A stretch of DNA of 8,833 nucleotides, taken from assembly GCA_003165615.1 (NCBI GenBank), contig PLWR01000327.1, positions 3,395 to 12,227 of the forward strand. Direction: 5' to 3'. Made by a program: the position numbers and the translations under genes. Positions 479-8,751 of this stretch are shown here, piece after piece; position 1 is the stretch's first letter; each line of letters starts with the position of its first letter. The notes below the pieces were generated by a model. The model saw only the letters and a list, made by a program, of their open reading frames with translations, did no database searches and was not told the DNA's origin. This DNA is from Acidobacteriota bacterium. Its GTDB lineage: Bacteria; Acidobacteriota; Terriglobia; UBA7540.

Positions 479-621
479 TTGTCCTTTATCCGTTGTCAGT
501 TGTCCGTGGTCCGTTGCCTATCCCCCATTCCAGAGATTGAGTGAAATGGGGTCCCTCTGGGGGAGCAGAGGAGTTACAGGGCAGTTGCACTGGCCACGGA
601 CAACGGACCACGGACAGCCTT
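479..621. repeat. Heptamer-array inverted repeat between recO and glyQ
   Basis: The left half reads as degenerate tandem heptamers from 479 to 520 (TTGTCCT, TTATCCG, TTGTCAG, TTGTCCG, TGGTCCG, TTGCCTA). The right half, 594-614, has the complementary type (CCACGGA, CAACGGA, CCACGGA), followed by CAGCCTT. The arms 501-516 and 601-616 are perfectly complementary over 16 bp with an 84-base loop. The loop holds two smaller hairpins: CCCCATT/AATGGGG (523-529/545-551) and CCTCTG/CAGAGG (554-559/566-571). The element fills the whole spacer, stopping one base before the recO stop codon and overlapping the glyQ ribosome binding site. It has no T-run typical of a terminator on the transcribed strand. 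Confidence 0.8.
482..487 (-). promoter_or_regulatory. Ribosome binding site supporting the GTG start of glyQ
   Basis: AAAGGA on the minus strand lies 8 bases upstream of the GTG at 473-471. It supports this start over the internal ATG at 410-408, which has no purine-rich sequence at a useful distance. It falls inside the left heptamer array (479-520), so folding of that repeat could mask it; that last point is inference. Confidence 0.5.
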
Positions 622-1365
622 TCAGACTTCTTCTTCCATCATCTGCCTTGTCACCAGCTTCCGCTCCGTGTGGCTCTCGATGACCTCTTCGAAGAAGTGG
701 CGCGCCTCTCGGCAGCCTGGGGGAGCCTTTTCCTGCGCCAGCCACTTTTCCAGAGGCACGTGGCAGGCGGTTTTGACCATAGCCAGGATGGCAGCCGAGA
801 CCCGCTGGCCGCCCGGGTGCCTGCAATCGCGGCAGAGCAGCGATTCTGAGCCACGGGCGTAGTAGCCACCCTCTTCCCCGAAGGCGCGGCCACAGGAGGC
901 GCAATTCTCAAAATCCGGCAGAAAGCCGCCCAGCCGCACCATCCAGTAGTCGAAATAGAGCAGGGGGCGATTGACTTCCCCGGAAGTCTTGAGCGCCCGC
1001 AAGACGGCCAGCAGCAGGCGGAAAGTGCGCTCATTCACCTCGCGTTCGGGCAGCAGCCGCTCCCCCACCTCAGCGAGGTATTGCGCCGCCAACTGCACGC
1101 GGTAGTCCGCCTGCATGTTGAAGAACGACTCCATGAGCTCGACGGAATTCAGGTGCAGCAGGTCGCGGTTTTCGCGCTCGAAGATCTGAATCCGCACATA
1201 GCTCAGGGGTTCAAGCGTGCCGCCATAGCGGCTCTTGGGGCGCAGGGCGCCGCGGGCCACAGCCCGCAAGCGGCCCAGTTGCCGCGTAAAAAGCGAAGCA
1301 ATCTTGTCAGCTTCACCCAGGCGGTAAGTACGAAGAACGATGGCTTCCGTTTCGCGCAGAGGCAT
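622..1365 (-). CDS. recO: DNA repair protein RecO
   Basis: RecO mediator of the RecFOR pathway. It binds single-stranded DNA and SSB and, with RecR, loads RecA at gaps during recombinational repair. The 247-residue length matches the family (about 240-250). The N-terminus has the RecO OB-fold signature (ETEAIVLRTYRLGEADKI, then FTRQLGRLRAVARGA and KSRYGGTLEPLS). A helical C-terminal half follows, containing a zinc-finger-like pair CASC...CRDC around residues 156-181, as in several non-enterobacterial RecO proteins. The ATG at 1365-1363 places MPLRETEAIVLRTYRLGE at the expected N-terminus. The frame stays open upstream to 1590, but that extension is low-complexity and not RecO-like. No good Shine-Dalgarno sequence precedes the ATG; a GTG 15 codons upstream is an alternative. 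It is probably co-transcribed with glyQ, which starts 148 bases downstream. Confidence 0.95.
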   Translation of the reverse strand: MPLRETEAIVLRTYRLGEADKIASLFTRQLGRLRAVARGALRPKSRYGGTLEPLSYVRIQIFERENRDLLHLNSVELMESFFNMQADYRVQLAAQYLAEVGERLLPEREVNERTFRLLLAVLRALKTSGEVNRPLLYFDYWMVRLGGFLPDFENCASCGRAFGEEGGYYARGSESLLCRDCRHPGGQRVSAAILAMVKTACHVPLEKWLAQEKAPPGCREARHFFEEVIESHTERKLVTRQMMEEEV

Positions 1366-1472
1366 TCGATGGCCAATGTCGACGCGCCGACAAAGAAAAA
1401 AGGTTAGCACACGCGGCCGCCGGCGGGAAGAAAAAAAGCAGCCCCTGCTTCCTTCACCGCCGGGGCGCGAAA

Positions 1473-1517
1473 GCGCTGAGGTCCGAATACCCAAAACCTT
1501 TCTCTGCTCCTCAGCGC
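1473..1517. repeat. Small inverted repeat upstream of recO
   Basis: GCGCTGAGG (1473-1481) and CCTCAGCGC (1509-1517) are perfect 9-bp complements separated by 27 bases. The right arm lies in a run that can be read as degenerate octamers from 1501 (TCTCTGCT, CCTCAGCG, CCCCTGCG). It may be a weaker member of the same class of repeat-built hairpins found between other genes in the window. It would lie in the untranslated leader if recO is transcribed from further right. Confidence 0.5.
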
Positions 1518-1605
1518 CCCTGCGGTGCAGGGTGGGAGGGATTTTTCGGGCGGTGTCGCCAGGAACCCTCCATCTCGCTTCCGGTACCAAGGAGTAGCAG
1601 ATCCA

Positions 1606-1790
1606 TTGATAATGTCCTAAGCAATATCCTCAGTATAGAAAAACCATTGGCGTGTATTTTCAATGATTTATAAACCAAAAAAATCTAAAACCTTAAGACC
1701 TGTGGAAATCTTTGGGGATTTTGTGGATAACATATTATGTTAACTAGAATGCCCCAGCTATAAACATTATCAGACGTGGCTGTGCATAAG
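1606..1790. promoter_or_regulatory. AT-rich segment with DnaA-box matches (possible replication origin or DnaA-controlled site)
   Basis: TGTGGATAA at 1722-1730 is the exact reverse complement of the DnaA box TTATCCACA. TGTGCATAA at 1782-1790 matches the relaxed box TTATNCACA. TGTGGAAAT at 1701-1709 matches 7 of 9 positions. All three have the same orientation. An AT-rich stretch (about 1606-1700), unusual for this GC-rich window, lies immediately to the left and could serve as an unwinding element. Genes diverge from the region on both sides. Against an origin are the small number of boxes and the absence of dnaA, dnaN or mnmG nearby. The matches themselves are clear; the function is inference. 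Confidence 0.4.
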
Positions 1791-1923
1791 CCGACTTTTC
1801 AGCACTCCACACCTTCCGCGTCCAGAAATTGCCCGCTATCCCGAATGTCGTCGCGTCGACTTTCCCCTTATGAACGGTCAGGCCGTTTTGGATCTGTTTT
1901 AATCTTTTTTGGGTTGTCTGTTT

Positions 1924-1952
1924 TTGATTGGCCGCACAGCTTAAAGTATGCT
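1924..1952 (+). promoter_or_regulatory. Sigma-70-type promoter for the 501-residue protein gene
   Basis: A -35-like TTGATT (1924-1929) and a -10-like TATGCT (1947-1952) are separated by exactly 17 bases. Each matches its consensus at four of six positions. Transcription would begin near 1959, giving a leader of about 70 bases before the ATG at 2032. That ATG has a strong ribosome binding site. Confidence 0.5.
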
Positions 1953-2020
1953 ACCCTCTGCGCCAAATCCGCGGCTACGGTTGCAGACGGTGTTTGGTCA
2001 AGATGGTGCAAACTGCCAAA

Positions 2021-2026
2021 AAGGAG
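2021..2026 (+). promoter_or_regulatory. Strong ribosome binding site fixing the start at 2032
   Basis: AAGGAG, within a longer purine run, is 5 bases upstream of the ATG at 2032. The same frame is open from an ATG at 1948, but that codon overlaps the -10 element and has no ribosome binding site, so 2032 is the better start. Confidence 0.75.
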
Positions 2027-2031
2027 ACGTC

Positions 2032-3537
2032 ATGACCACCCAAGAAATGAAGCAAGCCATCACCATCAGTTACGACGAATGGATGAAGCACACGGCCCTG
2101 GGGCCGTTTTCCCGGCGGAGCGAGACGATGCGTGGGATCGATCAGGCCTTGCAGCGGTTCCACCAGAATCCGTCCGATAAATCGTTCGTCGAACTGAGGA
2201 GGATTTTTACCGACTGGACTACTCGCATGAAGGAGGACATTGCATCTCGCAACAAGATTTCCAGCGGGTACCCGAAGGGTATTATCACCGAGTTACAAGA
2301 TCAGATCGCGCGGGTGGACGCCTCCCTCACCCGCGAACTGATGGCAGACCCCAAGAAGTGGGAGGCAATCCAGGCGTTTAGGAAAGCCGAGGGGGAAGCC
2401 CTGAAGAACATCTTTCAGAACCGGTCCCTGGAATTTAAGGACAAGATGTGGAAGCCCAACCTCGTCGCGAGCGTGAACACATGCATGTTGCCTGCCGCGT
2501 TTGGCGGGCTGGCGGCCAAGAAACTGGCAACTGGGGTCGACCTCCACACGGGTGAGGTCTCTGCTGCCGTGAAGAATCTCCTCGGTAACCAGAGTCCCTC
2601 TGCCCTGTTTAAACACCTGGGCGCCGGTTTTCTTGACAAGTTCGTGCACGCGTCGGGAAACATCGTCAGCGCGGCGTTCGCCCCAGGCCTGTTCCTCGCC
2701 GGCATCCTCTCGGCGGCATCACAAATCAATGACCGTTTGAAGATGAACCGCGAGCGGTTGATGTTCAGCCCCGGCCAGGCGGACGCGGCGCTGAACTGCA
2801 TCATCCGCCTGATCGACCGCGACCTGGTTGTGACCGGCATCAGCCTGGGTGAGAAAGTTGCTCAAATGGTCGCCGGTGGCTTCGGGGCAGTACCTATTTC
2901 GGGCGCCGTTAACGCGGTCGTGGACTTTATGGTGAATTTGCGCCTCTACGCCACCATGGCCCAGGAGATGGAGGACGGAAATATGCTGCTGCGTTCAGGC
3001 CGCCACAACCTCGACCTGTTCAATGCATCACCCCTGCTCGGCTGCTATTTCATCGTCATGGCCGACGTCGGTGTCTGGCTTAACTATGACGTGGGGGATT
3101 GGGGCGTAGAGGGCTTTATGGACACCATGGCGGAGATGTACGAGCGGGCTCTCCCGGTGAGGGAGAAGGCGCGGAAACTCATCCGGATGTCCAAGTACGC
3201 CGTATCGGGGACCGAGTATCTGGGATGGGAACCCAATTGGGCGAACCAGAAGGGCGAGTACTTGATGAGACTCATCAACACACGCCCCGACCAGCTCGGG
3301 GGCGCCGACTGGATCGCCAAAAATCTGCAAGTATTTAAACCACGCCCCAGAGACAGCGATGAATTTGGGATTGAAATGGCGACTTTCGCCACACATTCGA
3401 GCTACGTGAAGCCGCCGCGGCTGGGAATCCACGGGTCACAGATTCCACGGCCGCCTGCCTTGCAACGACCAGGCGGCGCGGGGATGATTGAAACCCCCTT
3501 GGGGACTTTCCCCCAACGACCATCCAAACCCAAGTGA
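2032..3537 (+). CDS. Unrecognised 501-residue protein with Gly/Ala-rich hydrophobic segments
   Basis: I do not recognise a named family. The first 130 residues are charged and helical, with a Trp/Arg-rich pattern (YDEWMKH at 14-20, FTDWTTRMKEDIASRNK at 59-75, GIITELQDQI at 83-92). This vaguely recalls N-terminal helical modules of some large bacterial secreted or effector-like proteins, a low-certainty impression. The centre has hydrophobic, small-residue-rich stretches around 211-229, 276-303 and 334-350 that could insert into or associate with a membrane. No signal peptide is visible. Residues 360-440 are again charged and helical, and the tail from about 461 is Pro-rich (PPRLG, PRPPALQRPGG, PQRPSKPK). 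It has its own promoter and a strong ribosome binding site. The Ser/Thr kinase gene begins 119 bases downstream on the same strand, so a functional link is possible but unproven. Base composition resembles the neighbours. Confidence 0.8.
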   Translation: MTTQEMKQAITISYDEWMKHTALGPFSRRSETMRGIDQALQRFHQNPSDKSFVELRRIFTDWTTRMKEDIASRNKISSGYPKGIITELQDQIARVDASLTRELMADPKKWEAIQAFRKAEGEALKNIFQNRSLEFKDKMWKPNLVASVNTCMLPAAFGGLAAKKLATGVDLHTGEVSAAVKNLLGNQSPSALFKHLGAGFLDKFVHASGNIVSAAFAPGLFLAGILSAASQINDRLKMNRERLMFSPGQADAALNCIIRLIDRDLVVTGISLGEKVAQMVAGGFGAVPISGAVNAVVDFMVNLRLYATMAQEMEDGNMLLRSGRHNLDLFNASPLLGCYFIVMADVGVWLNYDVGDWGVEGFMDTMAEMYERALPVREKARKLIRMSKYAVSGTEYLGWEPNWANQKGEYLMRLINTRPDQLGGADWIAKNLQVFKPRPRDSDEFGIEMATFATHSSYVKPPRLGIHGSQIPRPPALQRPGGAGMIETPLGTFPQRPSKPK

Positions 3538-3588
3538 GGGAGCCGCGCCGGGCAAGCCACGAGCAGGAGACGGAGCGGAAATCTGCTT

Positions 3589-3594
3589 TATAAT
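3589..3594 (+). promoter_or_regulatory. Candidate -10 element for the kinase gene
   Basis: A perfect TATAAT stands out in a GC-rich spacer, 62 bases upstream of the kinase ATG. No good -35 hexamer lies 16-18 bases further up, so activity may be weak or need an activator. The spacer 3538-3656 shows no obvious terminator for the preceding gene. Confidence 0.35.
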
Positions 3595-3656
3595 CACTCC
3601 CTGGGAACTGGCCACACAGGGACTGCCAACGGACAAAGGGAGGCGGAAGCACCACG

Positions 3657-4559
3657 ATGCCTGAGCAAATTTCCAGCTATCGACTGGAAGCGGAGATCGC
3701 GCGGGGCGGCATGGGAATTGTTTACCGTGGCGTGCACATGGTATTCGAGGAAGTCGTCGCCATTAAAGCCATCTATCCCGAGCTGATGCTCAGTCAGGAC
3801 CTCCGCCATCGGTTTCTGAATGAAGCCCGCATTCAGCGCCGATTGCAGCACCCCAACATCGTCCAAATCCGCGAATTCCTGACCGAGCAGGACAGGTTCT
3901 ACATCGTCATGGAACTCATCCAGGGGGAAACGCTGGCTGAGCACCTTCGGCAACTGGGTCGGCCGATGACCGTGCGTGAGGCCGCCGGCATCTTTCGCCA
4001 GACACTCGAAGGCCTGGGATTTGCGCACGCGCAGGGGGTGATTCATCGTGACATCAAGCCCTCGAACATCATGCTGACGCGCGACGGTGTGGCCAAGCTC
4101 ACTGACTTTGGCATCGCGCGTGGGGTAGATACGGCCAAGCTGACCCGCACCGGGTTGGCGCTCGGCACTGCCGCGTATATGTCGCCGGAGCAGATCCAAG
4201 GAGCGAAGATCGACCACCGGGCAGACATCTATTCGCTGGGAATTACCCTCTACGAAATGCTGACGGGCCGCGTGCCCTTTGGACGCCCGAAAGATTCGGA
4301 CAGCGATTTTCCCATTCTCACCGCGCACACCACTCAGCCACCTCCACCGCCGCGGCAATTCGCACCCAACATACCCGTACCCATTGAAGCCGCCATCCTG
4401 CAAGGCGCTGGCCAAGCAGCCGGAAGGGCGATTTCAAACTTGCCGGGAGTTCCAGGCGGCGCTGGGTTTAGAGTCCGGACCGACTCCCGATGTAATGTAT
4501 GCGCTGCGAGCGAAGCCGATAGGGCCGGTCCAACCTCTGCCTGGCCTGCCCGCCGATAG
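3657..4559 (+). CDS. PknB-type Ser/Thr protein kinase, N-terminal part of a frameshifted gene
   Basis: Hanks-type kinase domain that would transfer phosphate from ATP to Ser/Thr of cytoplasmic targets. Motifs in order: glycine-rich loop ARGGMGIVY (15-23), ATP-binding Lys37 in VAIKAI, Glu56 of helix C, catalytic HRDIKPSN (130-137) with Asp132, DFG at 150-152, an activation segment rich in Thr, MSPEQ at 175-179 in place of APE, and DIYSLGITLYEMLTG (190-204). The domain is intact up to Ile247-Leu248. From codon 249 (4401) this frame loses homology and ends with about 52 non-kinase residues. The expected end of the kinase fold (KALAKQPEGRFQTCREFQAAL) continues in the next frame from 4402. The start at 3657 is preceded by AAAGGGAGG at 13 bases and GGAAG at 7. 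As written, the product would lack the final C-lobe helices, the membrane anchor and the sensor propeller, so it may be unstable. Confidence 0.85.
   Translation: MPEQISSYRLEAEIARGGMGIVYRGVHMVFEEVVAIKAIYPELMLSQDLRHRFLNEARIQRRLQHPNIVQIREFLTEQDRFYIVMELIQGETLAEHLRQLGRPMTVREAAGIFRQTLEGLGFAHAQGVIHRDIKPSNIMLTRDGVAKLTDFGIARGVDTAKLTRTGLALGTAAYMSPEQIQGAKIDHRADIYSLGITLYEMLTGRVPFGRPKDSDSDFPILTAHTTQPPPPPRQFAPNIPVPIEAAILQGAGQAAGRAISNLPGVPGGAGFRVRTDSRCNVCAASEADRAGPTSAWPARR
4399..4404 (+). other. Frameshift site joining the kinase and WD40 frames
   Basis: Reading frame 3657 is kinase-like through ATC CTG (to 4400). Skipping one base, the C at 4401, makes the next codons AAG GCG CTG GCC AAG (KALAK), exactly the block expected after EAAIL in PknB-type kinases. 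A single-base difference therefore restores one continuous 664-residue protein from 3657 to 5652. There is no homopolymer at the site, and it does not resemble the known prfB-type +1 recoding signal. Confidence 0.8.
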
Positions 4560-5652
4560 GGTGGAGACCGATCCAGCCACTCCCAAGCCCCGCTCACCTT
4601 CCCCGCCGCGGCCCGCTTCCCGGCCCCCCGAACTGCAACCGCGCATGGCGAAGCTGGCCAGGAGGGAGGAGCCGCGGAGAGTTTGGCCATGGGTCGTTGC
4701 CGTAGCGTTGCTCGTATTGGCATTAGCGGGAGGCGTGGGGTGGTGGTTCCAGGCAAAGCAGGGAGATTACGGGCTGATGCACACTTTGACCGGCCACCAG
4801 GGTGACGTAACGTCGGTCGCTTTCAGCCCCGACTTACAACTGCTCGCGTCGGGCAGCGTGGACCGAACCATTAAACTATGGGACGTGCCAACCTGGCAAC
4901 TGAAGCGGACCCTGACCGGGCACGAGAACTATGTGGAGTCCGTTGACTTCAGCCCGGATGGGCATCTACTGGCATCGGGGAGTGCCGATAGCACTATAAA
5001 GATCTGGGAGGTTGCAACCGGAAATCTAAAGCAGACCTTGAAGTGGAATGGCAACTCCGTTCTCTCGGTCGCCTTCGGTACCGAGGCGCATCTGTTGGCC
5101 TCGGGAAGCTGGGACAAGACCATTGGGATTTGGGACGTTGCCAGCGGGACGCTCCAGCAAACCTTGACGGGACACCAAGGCCCGGTGAACTCGGTGGTCT
5201 TCAGTCCGGATGGCCGCCTTCTAGCCTCGGGGAGCGATGACAAAACCATCAAGCTCTGGGATGTGGCGAGGGGAGAGGTGGTGAAGACCCTGAGCGGGCA
5301 TGAAGACAAGGTAACGTGCGTCGACTTCAACCCGGACGGCCGGCGGCTGGCCTCGGGGAGCGGCGATGCCACGGTCCGCATTTGGGATGTGGCCAGCGGG
5401 AGATTGGAGCAGACTTTGACCGAGCACAAGCTCTACGTTCGATCCGTAGCCTTCAGCCCGGATGGCCGCTCGCTGGCATCGGGAAGCAACGACAATACTA
5501 TTAAGGTCTGGGACCTGGCGAGTGGAAAAGTAAAACAGGAACTGAACGGTCACCTCTACGACGTGGAATCTGTCGCCTTTAGCCGCGACGGGCAGTGGAT
5601 CGCGTCCGGAAGCGGAGATCATACCATCAAGCTCTGGGGGCGGTTCCAATAA
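4402..5652 (+). CDS. C-terminal part of the frameshifted kinase gene: kinase tail, membrane segment and seven-bladed WD40 propeller
   Basis: This frame is open from 4279, but recognisable protein begins at 4402 with the last kinase-domain helices (KALAKQPEGRF). A Pro/Arg-rich linker follows, with one hydrophobic transmembrane segment (WPWVVAVALLVLALAGGVGWW, about 4684-4746). Then come seven consecutive WD40 repeats of 42 residues, each with a GH-like start (blades 3 and 6 deviate), SVAFSPDG-like strand and LASGS.D.TIKLWDV-like end. In the rejoined protein the kinase is cytoplasmic and the propeller lies outside the membrane, probably as a sensing or protein-binding domain. Such kinase-WD40 receptors are known from several large-genome bacterial phyla. 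Possible independent starts are TTG 4279, ATG 4495 and ATG 4645, none with a clear ribosome binding site. An ATG 4645 start would still make a membrane-anchored propeller without the kinase. Confidence 0.85.
   Translation, partial: KALAKQPEGRFQTCREFQAALGLESGPTPDVMYALRAKPIGPVQPLPGLPADRVETDPATPKPRSPSPPRPASRPPELQPRMAKLARREEPRRVWPWVVAVALLVLALAGGVGWWFQAKQGDYGLMHTLTGHQGDVTSVAFSPDLQLLASGSVDRTIKLWDVPTWQLKRTLTGHENYVESVDFSPDGHLLASGSADSTIKIWEVATGNLKQTLKWNGNSVLSVAFGTEAHLLASGSWDKTIGIWDVASGTLQQTLTGHQGPVNSVVFSPDGRLLASGSDDKTIKLWDVARGEVVKTLSGHEDKVTCVDFNPDGRRLASGSGDATVRIWDVASGRLEQTLTEHKLYVRSVAFSPDGRSLASGSNDNTIKVWDLASGKVKQELNGHLYDVESVAFSRDGQWIASGSGDHTIKLWGRFQ
4780..5652 (+). repeat. Seven WD40 repeat units of 126 bases
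   Basis: Units start at 4780, 4906, 5032, 5158, 5284, 5410 and 5536, each exactly 42 codons except the last, which ends at the stop. No unit contains an insertion or deletion. Blade 3 is the most diverged: KWNGNS replaces the usual GH motif, and GTEAH replaces SPDG. This is a protein-level repeat; the DNA copies have diverged, although the LASGS-coding segments remain similar. Confidence 0.9.
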
Positions 5653-5885
5653 AACCCTCCTGCGAAGCCTCGAATTTGGCTGGACCCCTGGTGGTTTCTG
5701 CTGATACCATGAGCGCCTTTGTAATGGAGTCGCGGATCGGTCAAGAATAAAGCGCCAGTGCCCCGTCTCCTGGATTCAAAGGCGGCTCGTCCAATCCCTT
5801 TGGCCAAATCTCTATGGATGAGAACCCTGGAATCAGGTTGCCATGGGCGTTTGCAAATCGAACCGGTCAGGCGAGGAGTAAAAAC
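5653..5885 (+). other. Spacer before the sugar cassette
   Basis: These 233 bases separate the WD40 stop from the isomerase start. I see no clear terminator, no consensus promoter pair and none of the heptamer palindromes found in the spacers inside the sugar cassette. Transcription of the cassette probably starts here, but I cannot place the promoter. The frame of the isomerase is open from 5814, upstream of the AGGAG (5874-5878), and that part is not conserved-looking. Confidence 0.5.
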
Positions 5886-6581
5886 ATGAAACGCTCGGAA
5901 GTAAATGCCATTATGCGCGACGCCGACCAATTCATCCGCCAAAGCGGGTTCTATCTGCCCCCTTTCGCCTATTGGACTCCGGCTGACTGGCAGACCAAGG
6001 GTGAGGAAGTCAGAGAAATCGTGGAGAACCAGCTTGGGTGGGACATCACCGATTTCGGGCTTGGCAGGTATGACTCTGACGGGTTGTTCCTGTTCACGGT
6101 CCGAAATGGCAGCCAGGCGGATATGCGCGCCAAGCGTGGCCGGCTCTACTGCGAAAAGTTGATGGTGGTGGGCGTGGACCAGGTAACCCCCATGCACTGC
6201 CATTGGAACAAAATTGAGGACATCATCAATCGCGGCGGGGGAAAGCTGCTCATCCAGGTGTACAACGCCACCGACCAGGATGGCTTGGCAGACACCCCGG
6301 TCGTCGCCAATCTCGACGGTATAACGCGCCAGTTCAAGGCGGGGGACATCGTGAGCCTGGCCCCCGGGGAAAGCATCACCTTTCCACCGCGCCTCTATCA
6401 CAAGTTCTGGGGGGCGGAGAATCGCGTCCTGGTGGGAGAGGTGTCGCTGGTCAATGACGACTACCACGACAACTGTTTCTACGAACGTGTGGGCCGCTTC
6501 CCGGCAATTGAAGAGGATGTGGAACCCCTCCACCTGTTAACCACTGATTATGCCAAGTACTGGAAGGTTAAAGAACAGTGA
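5886..6581 (+). CDS. D-lyxose isomerase-family sugar isomerase (cupin fold)
   Basis: Metal-dependent aldose-ketose isomerase of the D-lyxose ketol-isomerase family (EC 5.3.1.15 type), which interconverts D-lyxose and D-xylulose and often D-mannose and D-fructose. The 231 residues match the family length. Characteristic blocks are MKRSEVNAIM at the start, LPPFAYWTPADW (24-35), LGWDITDFG (50-58), VTPMHCHWNKIEDIINRGGG (100-119), PGESITFPPRLYHKFWG (160-176) and GRFPAIEED (203-211). By comparison with characterised members, the likely metal ligands are His104, His106, Glu111 and His172, all present. The ATG at 5886 has AGGAG seven bases upstream and begins at the conserved MKRSE. It is first in a cassette followed by a sugar kinase and an aldolase, so a catabolic role is likely. 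The exact sugar cannot be read from sequence. Confidence 0.9.
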   Translation: MKRSEVNAIMRDADQFIRQSGFYLPPFAYWTPADWQTKGEEVREIVENQLGWDITDFGLGRYDSDGLFLFTVRNGSQADMRAKRGRLYCEKLMVVGVDQVTPMHCHWNKIEDIINRGGGKLLIQVYNATDQDGLADTPVVANLDGITRQFKAGDIVSLAPGESITFPPRLYHKFWGAENRVLVGEVSLVNDDYHDNCFYERVGRFPAIEEDVEPLHLLTTDYAKYWKVKEQ

Positions 6582-6595
6582 AGAGTGACGAGCAA

Positions 6596-6673
6596 GCGAA
6601 AGACGAAAATCGAAACTAGAAACTGGAAAATTGCAGCTAGTTTCTAGTTTCGATTTTCGATTTTCGCCTTTCC
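6596..6673. repeat. Heptamer-array inverted repeat between isomerase and sugar kinase genes
   Basis: The left half is tandem heptamers from 6604 (CGAAAAT, CGAAACT, AGAAACT, GGAAAAT). The right half from 6639 is their complement type (AGTTTCT, AGTTTCG, ATTTTCG, ATTTTCG). The arms 6604-6624 and 6639-6659 are perfectly complementary over 21 bp with a 14-base loop. After a two-base mismatch, GCGAAA (6596-6601) pairs with TTTCGC (6662-6667), giving 29-base arms. The structure lies 14 bases after the isomerase stop and 26 bases before the next ATG. It could act as an mRNA stabiliser, processing site or attenuator. No run of T's immediately follows the stem. Confidence 0.9.
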
Positions 6674-6699
6674 GTTGTTCTTAACTATGGGGGCTCTCT

Positions 6700-7731
6700 A
6701 TGACTGTGGATCATCGCCAAGGAATTGCCTGTGGCGGCCTTTGGGTGGTGGATACGGTCAAAGTCATTGACCACTATCCGCAGGAGAACAGCATCGCTTA
6801 CATCTCCGAGGTGTCTCGCGGGGGGGGCGGCTTAGGCCACAATGTGGTGATTGACCTGGCGAAGTTTGACCCGAACTTGCCGCTCCATGCCCTGGGACTC
6901 ATCGGCATCGACCCAAACGGCGACTATCTGGTGGAGCAATGCCGCCAATTCCCCAATATCAACCTTGGTCAATTGCGCCGCACCGACCTTGACGCCACGT
7001 CCTATACCGACGTTTTCAGCATCAAGGCAAGTGGACGCCGAACCTACTTTCACTACCCGGGAACCAACCGTCTTTTCGCACCCGTCCACGTCGATCTCGA
7101 CAGCCTGCCGGTAAGGATGTTCCACCTGGGCTACCTGCTCTTGCTGGACTCGATGGACCAGCCCGACGCAGAGTTTGGGACCGTGGCGGCTCGCTTCCTG
7201 GCGCAACTGCAATTGCGGAACATCCGAACCTCGATCGACCTGGTGTCGGAGGATAGCACCCGGTTCAGCCATATTGTGCCACCCGCGCTAAAGTACACCG
7301 ATTATTGCATTATCAATGATTGGGAAGCGGAGAAGCTGACGGGCATCCCCCTGCGGTCGGGAGGCAAGCTGCTTCCCCATAACCTGGGAAAGATTGGAGC
7401 GGCGATTCTTGCGTTTGGGGTTAAGGATCTGGTGGTCATTCACTTCCCCGAAGGCGGTTATCTGCTCTCAAAAGACGGGGTGGAACTGCTGCAACCTTCG
7501 CTGGAGCTAACCAATGACTTCATCGTGGGTAGTACTGGCGCCGGCGATGCCTTCTGCGCAGGCATTCTCTATGGGCTTTACCAGGGATGGAAGCATGATA
7601 AGACGCTGCGCTTCGCCACCTGCGCGGGCGGAATGAATTTGAACGACCTGACCACCACGGGTGGAAGCAAGTCATGGCAGGAAGTTTTTCAAATGGAGGA
7701 GAGGTTCCCTTATCGGAAGAGTGTCCAATAG
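6700..7731 (+). CDS. PfkB (ribokinase)-family carbohydrate kinase
   Basis: ATP-dependent sugar kinase of the ribokinase/PfkB superfamily; the likely reaction is phosphorylation of the ketose made by the upstream isomerase. The 343 residues are a usual length. The N-terminal substrate-binding region has CGGLWVVDTVKVIDHYP (11-27) and the GGGGLGHNVVIDLAKF block (41-56), replacing the common GG-x-x-x-N motif. The C-terminal PfkB signature is GSTGAGDAFCAGILYG (277-292), where Asp283 is the expected catalytic base and the preceding Gly-Ala-Gly forms the anion hole. The ATG at 6700 has a weak G-rich element (GGGGG) about seven bases upstream, so translation may depend on coupling or on the upstream hairpin. 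Members phosphorylate many sugars and nucleosides; subfamily and substrate are not assigned here. Confidence 0.9.
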   Translation: MTVDHRQGIACGGLWVVDTVKVIDHYPQENSIAYISEVSRGGGGLGHNVVIDLAKFDPNLPLHALGLIGIDPNGDYLVEQCRQFPNINLGQLRRTDLDATSYTDVFSIKASGRRTYFHYPGTNRLFAPVHVDLDSLPVRMFHLGYLLLLDSMDQPDAEFGTVAARFLAQLQLRNIRTSIDLVSEDSTRFSHIVPPALKYTDYCIINDWEAEKLTGIPLRSGGKLLPHNLGKIGAAILAFGVKDLVVIHFPEGGYLLSKDGVELLQPSLELTNDFIVGSTGAGDAFCAGILYGLYQGWKHDKTLRFATCAGGMNLNDLTTTGGSKSWQEVFQMEERFPYRKSVQ

Positions 7732-7867
7732 GTATCGGGTGCCAGGTATCAGGTGTCAGTCGTCTGCTTCCAACCCTTTGGCGCCAGATGATAATAGAGT
7801 GGGCGCTGAGGACAGGGTATTGCGAATTTTTCCCTGACACCTGGCACCTGATACCTGACACCATATC
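7730..7867. repeat. Heptamer-array inverted repeat between sugar kinase and aldolase genes
   Basis: Left heptamers start at 7730 (AGGTATC, GGGTGCC, AGGTATC, AGGTGTC, AGTCGTC). Right heptamers start at 7833 (CCTGACA, CCTGGCA, CCTGATA, CCTGACA, CCATATC). The best pairing is 7731-7752 with 7834-7855: 20 of 22 positions complementary, and the two others could pair as G-U in one transcript strand. Because the units are near-identical, other registers shifted by seven are possible. The loop is about 80 bases. The left array overlaps the kinase stop codon, and the right array ends 4 bases before the AAGGAG of the aldolase gene. Confidence 0.88.
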
Positions 7868-7871
7868 TTAC

Positions 7872-7877
7872 AAGGAG
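7872..7877 (+). promoter_or_regulatory. Ribosome binding site supporting the GTG start of the aldolase
   Basis: AAGGAG lies 8 bases upstream of GTG 7886. There is no ATG in frame near the conserved N-terminus, so this site decides the start. It directly follows the right arm of the palindrome. Confidence 0.75.
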
Positions 7878-7885
7878 TTAACCGA

Positions 7886-8722
7886 GTGTCCATAAATCCC
7901 AGGTTCAACAGGTTATTTACCCATGACGGAAAGTGTCTGCAGGTGGCGCTGGATCACGGAGGGGTGAACGTGCCCAGTCTTATTCCCGGCCTCGAGAGCA
8001 TGAAGCAAGTCATTGAGACCGTAGCCGCAGCCAATCCCGACGCCATCCTTGTCACCGCCGGGCAGGCCCATTGGCTTCAGGATCTGAGGCAGAAACCCAA
8101 GCCGGCGTTGGTGCTTCGAGCCGATTCCCCCAACATCTATTGCACCCCGAAGACTGACACACCTTTCAACCTGCTGATTGGCGACGCGGTGGAACAAGCG
8201 GTGGTCATGGACGCGGCGGCGATCGTCCTCAACCTGTTTTGGGCGCCGGACCAGCAGGAACTGTACCGCCAATGTATGGAAAACGTCCTCACCATCAAAC
8301 CGCGTTGCGAGCGCTATGGCATGCCGCTGATGGTGGAACCCATGATCCTGATCATGGATGACAAGGGCGGGTACAAATTCAATACCGACATCCAACAAAC
8401 CGTGGCGTTGGCGCGGCAGGCGGTGGAGTTAGGCGCCGACATCGTCAAAGCTGATGTCGCTGAGAATCTCGAGGAATATCACCTGGTGGTGGAAGCGTCT
8501 GCTCCCTGCCCACTGCTTCCGCGCGGAGGCGCAAGGGTATCTGACCAGGAAATCCTCACTCGCACCTATACGATGATTCAGCAAGGTGCGTCCGGAATTA
8601 TCTACGGGCGGAATATTTACCAGCACCCCCACCCAGCGCGGATGATCCGCGCCTGCCAGGCCGTTGTTCATGAAGGCGCCACCGTTGCGCAGGCCATGGC
8701 GATGCTTGAAAATATCGGGTGA
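7886..8722 (+). CDS. Class I aldolase of the DeoC/FbaB/LacD type
   Basis: Schiff-base-forming aldolase related to FbaB-type fructose-bisphosphate aldolase, LsrF-like and LacD-like enzymes; cytoplasmic. The 278 residues fit the family. Family marks are VALDHG (20-25) at the first barrel strand, MVEPM (149-153), GADIVKADV (183-191) with Lys188 as the expected Schiff-base lysine, the RGG loop (213-215), and GIIYGRNIYQHPHP (237-250), the phosphate-binding loop and following helix. The last part, VVHEGATVAQAMAML, is typical of this family's C-terminus. Placed third after an isomerase and a PfkB kinase, it most likely cleaves the resulting ketose phosphate to a triose phosphate (DHAP) and an aldehyde; this step is inferred. 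A role in another aldol reaction cannot be excluded. Confidence 0.88.
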   Translation: MSINPRFNRLFTHDGKCLQVALDHGGVNVPSLIPGLESMKQVIETVAAANPDAILVTAGQAHWLQDLRQKPKPALVLRADSPNIYCTPKTDTPFNLLIGDAVEQAVVMDAAAIVLNLFWAPDQQELYRQCMENVLTIKPRCERYGMPLMVEPMILIMDDKGGYKFNTDIQQTVALARQAVELGADIVKADVAENLEEYHLVVEASAPCPLLPRGGARVSDQEILTRTYTMIQQGASGIIYGRNIYQHPHPARMIRACQAVVHEGATVAQAMAMLENIG

Positions 8723-8751
8723 TTGGGTGATTTAGCGATTTAGTGATTTGA
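8720..8751. repeat. Tandem octamer array after the aldolase gene
   Basis: Four consecutive 8-base units begin at the aldolase stop codon: TGATTGGG, TGATTTAG, CGATTTAG, TGATTTGA. This resembles the left halves of the heptamer arrays in the other spacers, but with an 8-base period. No complementary right half appears in the remaining 82 bases. Confidence 0.65.

Follow-up and report, generated by a model that had tools for sequence, protein, structure and literature searches.

The DNA analysed here (the window) is a stretch of 8,833 nucleotides from an Acidobacteriota bacterium (contig PLWR01000327.1), which carries glyQ and recO at one end and a run of D-lyxose isomerase, PfkB sugar kinase and DeoC/LacD aldolase genes at the other; one unknown gene and a Ser/Thr kinase with WD40 repeats make up the other genes. 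Three spacers, recO–glyQ, isomerase–PfkB and PfkB–aldolase, hold palindromes (elements 1, 2 and 3) in which degenerate tandem 7-base units, here called words, face units of inverted sequence (Table 1). A first-pass annotation, made from the sequence alone, had described spacers of this layout, and we confirmed that the three palindromes are real and lie where it had placed them. Their best inverted-repeat scores were 16, 24 and 19 respectively, against a maximum of 12.5 in 20 dinucleotide-shuffled windows. The window also contained four period-7 arrays with a score of at least 12, and the 20 shuffles combined contained one. Folded as coding-strand RNA (element 1 as 479–621), the three gave −65, −51 and −64 kcal/mol, with z-scores of −5.27, −8.47 and −5.72, and an equally stable fold was obtained in 0 of 200 shuffles for each of them.

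The inverted match in element 1 extends over 16 of 16 bases (501–516 against 601–616). The arms of element 2 are 78% complementary over 51 nt and 93% over the best 29 nt, with heptamer arrays of the CGAAAAT/CGAAACT type inside the left (6597–6629) and the right (6637–6672) arm, and the left array of element 3 begins within the stop codon of the PfkB gene. Five sites in the window resemble intrinsic terminators (a GC-rich stem with a T-run), none of them on the three stems. No family was matched when the window was scanned with Rfam at the gathering threshold, and element 1 gave no match to phage records by distant blastn.

Table 1. Palindrome arms, the recO–glyQ spacer and genes of the window.
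Feature	Positions	Strand	Description
Element 1, left arm	479–516		Degenerate tandem heptamers, TTGTCCG type; Tandem Repeats Finder period 7, 5.4 copies
Element 1, right arm	588–616		Inverted heptamers, ACGGACA type
Element 2, left arm	6584–6634		51 nt; outer words GAGTGAC GAGCAAG, inner words CGAAAGA CGAAAAT CGAAACT AGAAACT
Element 2, right arm	6636–6686		Inverted copy of left arm
Element 3, left arm	7730–7759		AGGTATC/GGGTGCC/AGGTATC/AGGTGTC
Element 3, right arm	7833–7862		Inverted AGGTGTC/AGGTATC/AGGTGCC/AGGTGTC
recO–glyQ spacer	474–621	−	148 nt, recO stop to glyQ start; almost filled by element 1
glyQ, glycyl-tRNA synthetase alpha	3–473	−	PF02091; truncated at window edge
recO	622–1365	−	PF02565, PF11967
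D-lyxose isomerase family gene	5886–6581	+	PF07385
PfkB-family sugar kinase gene	6700–7731	+	PF00294
DeoC/LacD-family aldolase gene	7886–8722	+	PF01791

Period-7 arrays form a dispersed intergenic class

Genome-wide counts come from samples of relatives' genomes, not from the window's own genome. The nearest genome compared, G001, is an Acidobacteriota metagenome-assembled genome (MAG) that includes L001 (Acidobacteria bacterium bog_367, PLSX01000072.1) and was located through PfkB homologues. Its proteins are 85% (RecO), 83% (PfkB), 79% (aldolase) and 78% (isomerase) identical to those of the window, and the four genes lie on a single contig in the same order. The G001 sequence scanned, 647,025 readable bases or roughly one tenth of the genome, contained 47 period-7 arrays at a score of at least 12; periods 14 and 21, echoes of 7, gave 29 and 12, and the remaining periods from 4 to 20 gave 0–3 each. 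Five shuffles together yielded one period-7 array, and the excess over shuffled sequence on which the first-pass annotation had staked its reading is borne out in these samples of relatives' DNA. In 146,667 bases of another relative, G007, there were 20 arrays of period 7, 13 of period 14 and five of period 8, which was the commonest period after these two, with 0–2 for each of the others. The G001 sample comprised 649,893 bases, of which 2,868 read N, and period counts for the window, G001 and G007 were made without N.

Array density per 100 kb was 7.2 in G001, 4.6 in G002–G005, 1.3 in G006–G025, 0.95 at Verrucomicrobiota loci and 0 at Firmicutes loci, in samples that are small and uneven; counts for the other genome groups rest on shuffles with N replaced by A, which yields spurious arrays, and the window, at 45 per 100 kb, had been selected for this feature. 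Density does not simply fall with distance, because farther relatives are array-rich: at a score of at least 11, two 20-kb stretches of G055 held 3 and 14 arrays, and 15 kb of G049 held five. The 14 arrays in the first 20 kb of G055 contig 2 (L339) consist mostly of AAGTTCA and TAGGTNA words.

At the same score the G001 sample contained 55 arrays, 49 of them intergenic, two in predicted genes and four at contig edges; 49 of the 51 that could be placed were therefore intergenic although 80% of the sample is coding. Genes were called with a home-made codon-hexamer model, which gave one false gene in the window (3594–4217). The observation that the palindromes lie between co-directional genes is true of all three, but it is also true of most spacers. 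The neighbours of the 49 intergenic arrays were co-directional in 32 cases, convergent in 8 and divergent in 9, and the corresponding figures for all 357 G001 spacers of at least 40 bp were 245, 53 and 59. Because array contexts match the orientation of all spacers, we take the co-directional setting as background; no clear preference for an orientation of neighbouring genes was seen in this comparison.

Words recur between loci, whole elements as a rule do not

The G001 sample holds tens of words, with degenerate units and with words differing between loci. It had been proposed that each locus has a heptamer of its own, and this did not survive a wider sample: among 82 elements, 51 pairs agreed in their consensus word, rotation and strand being disregarded, as compared with a mean of 3.8 identical pairs, and a maximum of 8, in 60 permutations of word letters. 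The earlier impression arose because only three loci were in view. When single elements were compared with 61 genomes, matches were present in 33 for a GTGACRA element (L076), in 22 for window element 3 and in 20 for window element 1, many matching genomes carrying 10 to 44 matches to the queried elements. For the array of window element 3, stretches of 28 to 33 bases were matched at 100% in G007 and G001.

Among the alignments listed, matches were located on the arms, in some cases with an extension of at most ∼15 bases into the loop; the exceptions, which spanned the loop, were the inverted match of the query to itself and one match in G007 (G007:C653, 71%). Because the listed matches are confined mostly to arms, we conclude that sharing does not generally extend to whole elements. 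This upholds the argument of the first-pass annotation against one alignable transposed element, since words differ between loci and like-word matches generally stay on the arms. Transposition of the whole hairpin is likewise disfavoured, the listed matches generally ending near the loop.

Variation within words was not uniform. In arrays with at least four units and at least four deviations, deviations were clustered by word position at P < 0.05 in 9 of 41 cases (Fisher, 1.3e-5), the two most variable positions taking 69% of deviations against 59% expected. The extreme is a TCAGCNN array of 16 units in G055 (L338, 16895–17008), in which all 16 deviations fall at two of the seven positions. 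In most single arrays, those of the window included, the clustering was not significant.

The arms resemble inverted copies of each other

In the first G001 sample, 10 of 32 arrays had a reverse-complement partner within 300 bp at a score of at least 12.5, a count in which both arms of one hairpin may figure. Controls with the reversed sequence, the complemented sequence or another locus gave 0, 1 and 1 of 32 respectively. The inverted layout is common, not universal.

In 23 hairpins, chosen by hand because an inverted partner was visible, the identity between arms was 0.74–0.94 in the best register and averaged 0.17–0.36 in registers that were not multiples of 7. Since the best register was chosen, only this contrast is informative; identity was also lower at shifts of ±7, and in L134 it was equalled at a shift of 14. 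The 23 include a palindrome of a different, non-heptameric kind (L135). For 19 hairpins, hand-picked in the same way and leaving out four of the 23, the order of unit variants was compared. It matched between arms better than permuted units at P < 0.05 in seven of the 19 (Fisher, 1.2e-6), including window element 2 (P = 0.02). In G055, a 16-unit TCAGCNN array and an inverted partner ∼420 bp away agree in the order of their free positions (P = 0.010). The clearest arm copy, at L083 (4340–4610), has 50-nt arms that are 94% alike and span a switch of word from AAGGATG to AAATGGT.

Because unit order matches, the arms look like inverted copies, which fits what template switching would give. The suggestion that a short seed is expanded by 7 bases and then copied inverted therefore stands in part: unit order favours its template-switching half, but expansion of a single seed does not describe cases such as L083, where the arms copy a heterogeneous array across a word switch.

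The recO–glyQ junction retains an element while its words change

A RecO match was present in 52 genomes, and the loci of 31 were taken, giving with the window 32 recO–glyQ spacers, of which 28 were scored. Spacers left unscored were duplicates (L131, L133, L136), those below 40 nt (L153, L158, L167) and L165, which exceeds 400 nt and in which an AGAAGGC palindrome can be made out by eye. The first aligned glyQ residue was taken as the spacer end, so that up to 16 glyQ codons are included in some species. Where RecO identity was at least 67% (n = 12, window included), period 7 was detected at P ≤ 0.03 in 11 spacers, G002 being negative; G003, one of the 11, has a stronger period 6, so that the clear cases number 10. 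In the 16 more distant spacers period 7 was detected at P ≤ 0.05 in none. The fold z-score was −2.7 or lower in 8 of the 12 close spacers.

The words at this junction, named by eye for each species, were of the TTGTCCG type in the window, G005 and G007, TCAGCNN in G001, G006 and G024, TCAGTNN in G004, GTCGAAG in G017, TTGTNNN/GTTCGTG in G012, and degenerate in G010. A tree of RecO and GlyQ joined the window first to G001 (97/93) and then to G007 (96/89), with G006 outside (97/95). Because it pairs the window with G001 before G007, words are interleaved across species.

Spacer halves paired better within species (mean −46.5 kcal/mol) than between species (−34.3 kcal/mol; permutation P = 1e-5, rising to 3.6e-4 when two spacers with an additional palindrome are excluded). 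Arms at recO–glyQ were also more alike across species than they were to 51 random G001 and G007 elements in 10 of 10 spacers tested (Wilcoxon P = 0.002; these were the close relatives other than G002 and G003), which argues for descent in situ. We read the recO–glyQ palindrome as one inherited element whose words have drifted or been overwritten in both arms. In the G004 spacer (L135), two inverted copies of a second palindrome (ATTCCCGCGAAAGCGGGAAT type) separate the heptamer arms, resembling an insertion into the loop.

Other junctions show differing words, nesting and empty sites

In G001, a GTGACAA palindrome occupies the isomerase–PfkB spacer. Window element 2 carries the outer left words GAGTGAC GAGCAAG, as in this orthologous spacer, with CGAAAAT words inside; similarly, in G007 (L332, 3060–3210) CGAAACT is nested within GTGACAA.

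At yicC–gmk, 22 of 30 loci were scored, six spacers below 30 nt and two without the adjacent gene having been dropped, and 4 of the 22 had a period-7 P of 0.016. One GTGACRA hairpin is common to G001 and G007, G008 has an ACTGAAA array and the distant G049 a TGTAGCC hairpin; the spacer is nearly empty in G006 (2 nt) and G004 (17 nt). At rapZ–rok, 10 of 30 loci were scored (four were short, and 16 lacked an adjacent rok), 3 of them with a period-7 P of 0.016. Here G001 has an AATTAAG hairpin (145 nt), G006 an AGGTGCT hairpin (109 nt) and G022 a weaker signal; in G010 and G003, whose RapZ proteins are 86% and 84% identical, the spacer is reduced to 19 and 16 nt respectively.

Filled and empty sites at these two junctions indicate that elements are gained and lost, and because close relatives have empty sites, the element is not essential at either. 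The first-pass annotation had envisaged comparing orthologous spacers for presence and unit turnover; in this comparison words differ at recO–glyQ, and yicC–gmk and rapZ–rok have empty sites.

Directly after the aldolase gene, at 8717–8749, the window has a degenerate array of period 8 (GGGTGATT / GATTTAGC), with no partner in the inverted-repeat listing. The matching place in L001 (12010–12300) holds an AAGGTGA-type heptamer palindrome instead.

Relation to known repeats

REP/REPIN–RAYT systems comprise intergenic palindromes in inverted pairs; the REP sequence, with its GTAG or CGTC end tag, is conserved, and the palindromes flank the gene of a partner Y1 transposase. The heptamer elements are likewise intergenic palindromes with inverted pairs, but their arms are 7-periodic with many words, and there is no conserved palindrome. 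Miniature inverted-repeat transposable elements (MITEs) have terminal inverted repeats, a target-site duplication and a conserved interior, whereas the interiors of the heptamer elements are as a rule not shared among the matches listed. The STRR of heterocystous cyanobacteria, which the first-pass annotation had named as a loose precedent, are direct tandem heptamers in spacers, and heptameric repeats of the STRR/LSSR kind use few words per genome in near-perfect units. In G001 we find their 7-base tandem units at many, mostly intergenic loci, but the units are degenerate and the words number in the tens.

A close parallel is the P6b stem-loop of the Nostoc tRNA-Leu(UAA) intron, with Class I TDNGATT and Class II NNTGAGT repeats (PMC4476775): its stem consists of 7-base units pairing with complementary units, word positions are partly fixed and partly variable, and one word class has repeatedly replaced another with the stem retained. 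That system is a single group I intron locus with two word classes, whereas the present elements lie at many intergenic loci, draw on tens of words and, in the window, match no Rfam family. The GGGAATC heptamers of Xanthomonas and GGGGA(T/C)T heptamers of Nostoc form dispersed degenerate arrays, 89–93% intergenic in Xanthomonas, with 70 and 75 cases of two convergently oriented arrays; a majority occupy the same gene junctions in two species and vary extensively in length and sequence (PMC4692102, which also mentions three STRR in Calothrix). They are like the present arrays in being dispersed, degenerate and mostly intergenic; they differ in that one word per genome was studied, as a G-quadruplex former, inverted pairs are few in Nostoc, and the portions seen give no word repertoire and no change of word in both arms. 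Words with fixed and free positions are known from both accounts (TDNGATT and NNTGAGT in PMC4476775; GGGANTN of Xanthomonas in PMC4692102).

Paired repeat sites of Geobacter metallireducens (PMC2700814) have octamer-like units in classes 1 and 2 and heptamers in class 3, alongside GGGACCG heptamer elements. They resemble the present arrays in their tandem 7- or 8-base units, those of classes 1 and 2 being paired on opposite strands at variable distance, but have a single consensus per class and were proposed as IHF/HU sites, the GGGACCG elements being termed regulatory RNA elements. TAACTGA repeats of Beggiatoaceae, cyanobacteria and Bacteroidetes (PMC4679880) are also intergenic heptamer arrays at many loci, of function unknown in that account, but consist of one word, direct (with one indirect case) and mostly just upstream of start codons. 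We found no account of such elements in Acidobacteriota among the search listings examined, which covered open-access papers without their supplements; nor was one found at the words 'heptamer' or 'intergenic' in two Acidobacteriota genome papers, PMC3174227, which ran tandem and inverted repeat finders, and PMC11778308.

Origin of the heptamer palindromes

We propose, at a probability of roughly 0.55, that these elements are a dispersed class of heptamer-word palindromes in Acidobacteriota (Terriglobia-like genomes), shaped by slippage in situ, inverted copying between arms and the spread of words between loci. A spacer would first gain a degenerate array of 7-base words, the length of which would shift in 7-base steps, probably by slippage; the step has been tied tentatively to a polymerase footprint (PMC4679880, PMC4692102). 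A second arm would arise by, and stay similar through, inverted copying inside the hairpin, presumably by DNA template switching, which can make and mend hairpins (PMC8794818), or quasipalindrome correction; the matching unit order and the like words in both arms are our reasons for favouring this. The element would then persist long at its junction, the words of both arms being altered by drift or overwriting. Words may also pass between loci, most simply by template switching or recombination between dispersed arrays, because arms are shared and loops mostly are not. Where transcribed, the elements would form long intergenic hairpins. On the best reading, then, the heptamer palindromes are a variant of heptameric repeats already known rather than a demonstrated mobile system.

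Several observations weigh against this proposal. The unit-order test, in which units are few and power is low, fails in 12 of the 19 hairpins, including window elements 1 (P = 0.45) and 3 (P = 0.26). The halves of three of the 12 close recO–glyQ spacers (G010, G002 and G024) pair no better within than on average between species, although in G024 the mid-point split probably cuts the hairpin, and the orthologous PfkB–aldolase spacer of G001 is without a clear array. Within-species pairing would equally result from selection on structure. Clustering of deviations at certain word positions is not accounted for by slippage alone, and the preference for 7 is left without explanation. No single mutational event was observed: the evidence is wholly interspecies, the nearest pairs being ∼80–87% alike in the proteins compared.

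We consider it unlikely, if well worth weighing, that the elements are instead selected RNA hairpins acting in mRNA between co-transcribed genes (in stability, processing or insulation), selection keeping the arms complementary and being blind to the words. Such selection would suit the orthologous recO–glyQ spacers, which retain a heptamer element with differing words and fold at z ≤ −2.7 in 8 of 12, and the window elements, which fold at z of −5.3 to −8.5 and span almost from stop to start. It is less easily reconciled with the nearly empty yicC–gmk (G006, G004) and rapZ–rok (G010, G003) spacers of close relatives, with neighbour-gene orientations equal to the background, with the 22 of 32 arrays that have no inverted partner at a score of 12.5 within 300 bp, or with stems in the window that have no T-run terminator.

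It seems improbable that the elements are mobile palindromes akin to REP/REPINs or MITEs that owe their spread to a transposase such as TnpA-REP (Y1/HUH). Words do recur at many loci and in 20–33 of 61 genomes, filled and empty sites exist, and a Y1 transposase domain was found in 13 of 16 genomes, its copy number being higher in eight genomes rich in matches to the three queried elements than in eight poor in them (Mann–Whitney P = 0.0096, a difference confounded with genome size). However, sharing generally stops short of whole elements, listed matches mostly staying on the arms, and Y1 copy number also tracks genome size (rho 0.64). Furthermore, G021 has eight Y1 copies and no match, G024 has one copy and many matches, and a heptamer array lies near just one of four Y1 loci examined. 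The dedicated mobile hairpin system that the first-pass annotation had entertained gained no clear positive support from these comparisons.

Slightly more doubtful still is a dedicated machinery that writes and rewrites arrays, a thought that would cover the 7-base steps, the fixed core with free positions (as in the 16-unit L338 array), the two orientations and the limited word repertoire kept across many species. Such a machinery might be an enzyme acting on single-stranded DNA or from an RNA template, or else several proteins, each specific to the core of one word. Least probable are plain heptameric simple-sequence repeats made by polymerase slippage, with the inverted layout a chance by-product: heptameric repeats are over-represented in many bacteria and tied to the polymerase footprint (PMC4692102, PMC4679880), but inverted partners accompany 10 of 32 arrays against 0–1 of 32 in controls, and unit order is matched between arms overall.

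The class is of more interest for its behaviour at orthologous junctions than as three odd spacers. Scattered reports of heptameric repeats become one comparable phenomenon, in which an element stays at an orthologous junction and its words change in both arms. This offers a natural system for measuring inverted copying between the arms of bacterial hairpins, and may show how bacterial DNA makes and repairs inverted copies of itself. It could distinguish stem maintenance driven by mutation from selection acting on RNA structure, allows one to ask why 7 bases are preferred, and cautions against taking covariation between stem halves as proof of a functional RNA.

Neighbouring genes and minor observations

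The PfkB protein of the window shares 99% identity with a JGI metagenome protein (P0001); metagenome contigs (P0001, P0002) carry PfkB relatives at 90–99% identity, and named organisms among the PfkB relatives listed are mostly Terriglobia MAGs, with one Blastocatellia (68%). The unknown gene is a 501-aa open frame at 2032–3537 with no Pfam match at E 0.001. The open reading frames of the Ser/Thr kinase (3657–4559) and the WD40 repeats (4279–5652) overlap at 4279–4559 in different frames, and the kinase-like tail apparently runs on in the frame of the latter, which points to a possible frameshift or sequencing error in a single kinase–WD40 gene. Upstream of the unknown gene, positions 1500–1950 are AT-rich (GC content 0.42–0.44) and contain two DnaA-box-like sites, at 1722–1730 and 1781–1789, a number equalled in 9 of 200 shuffles.

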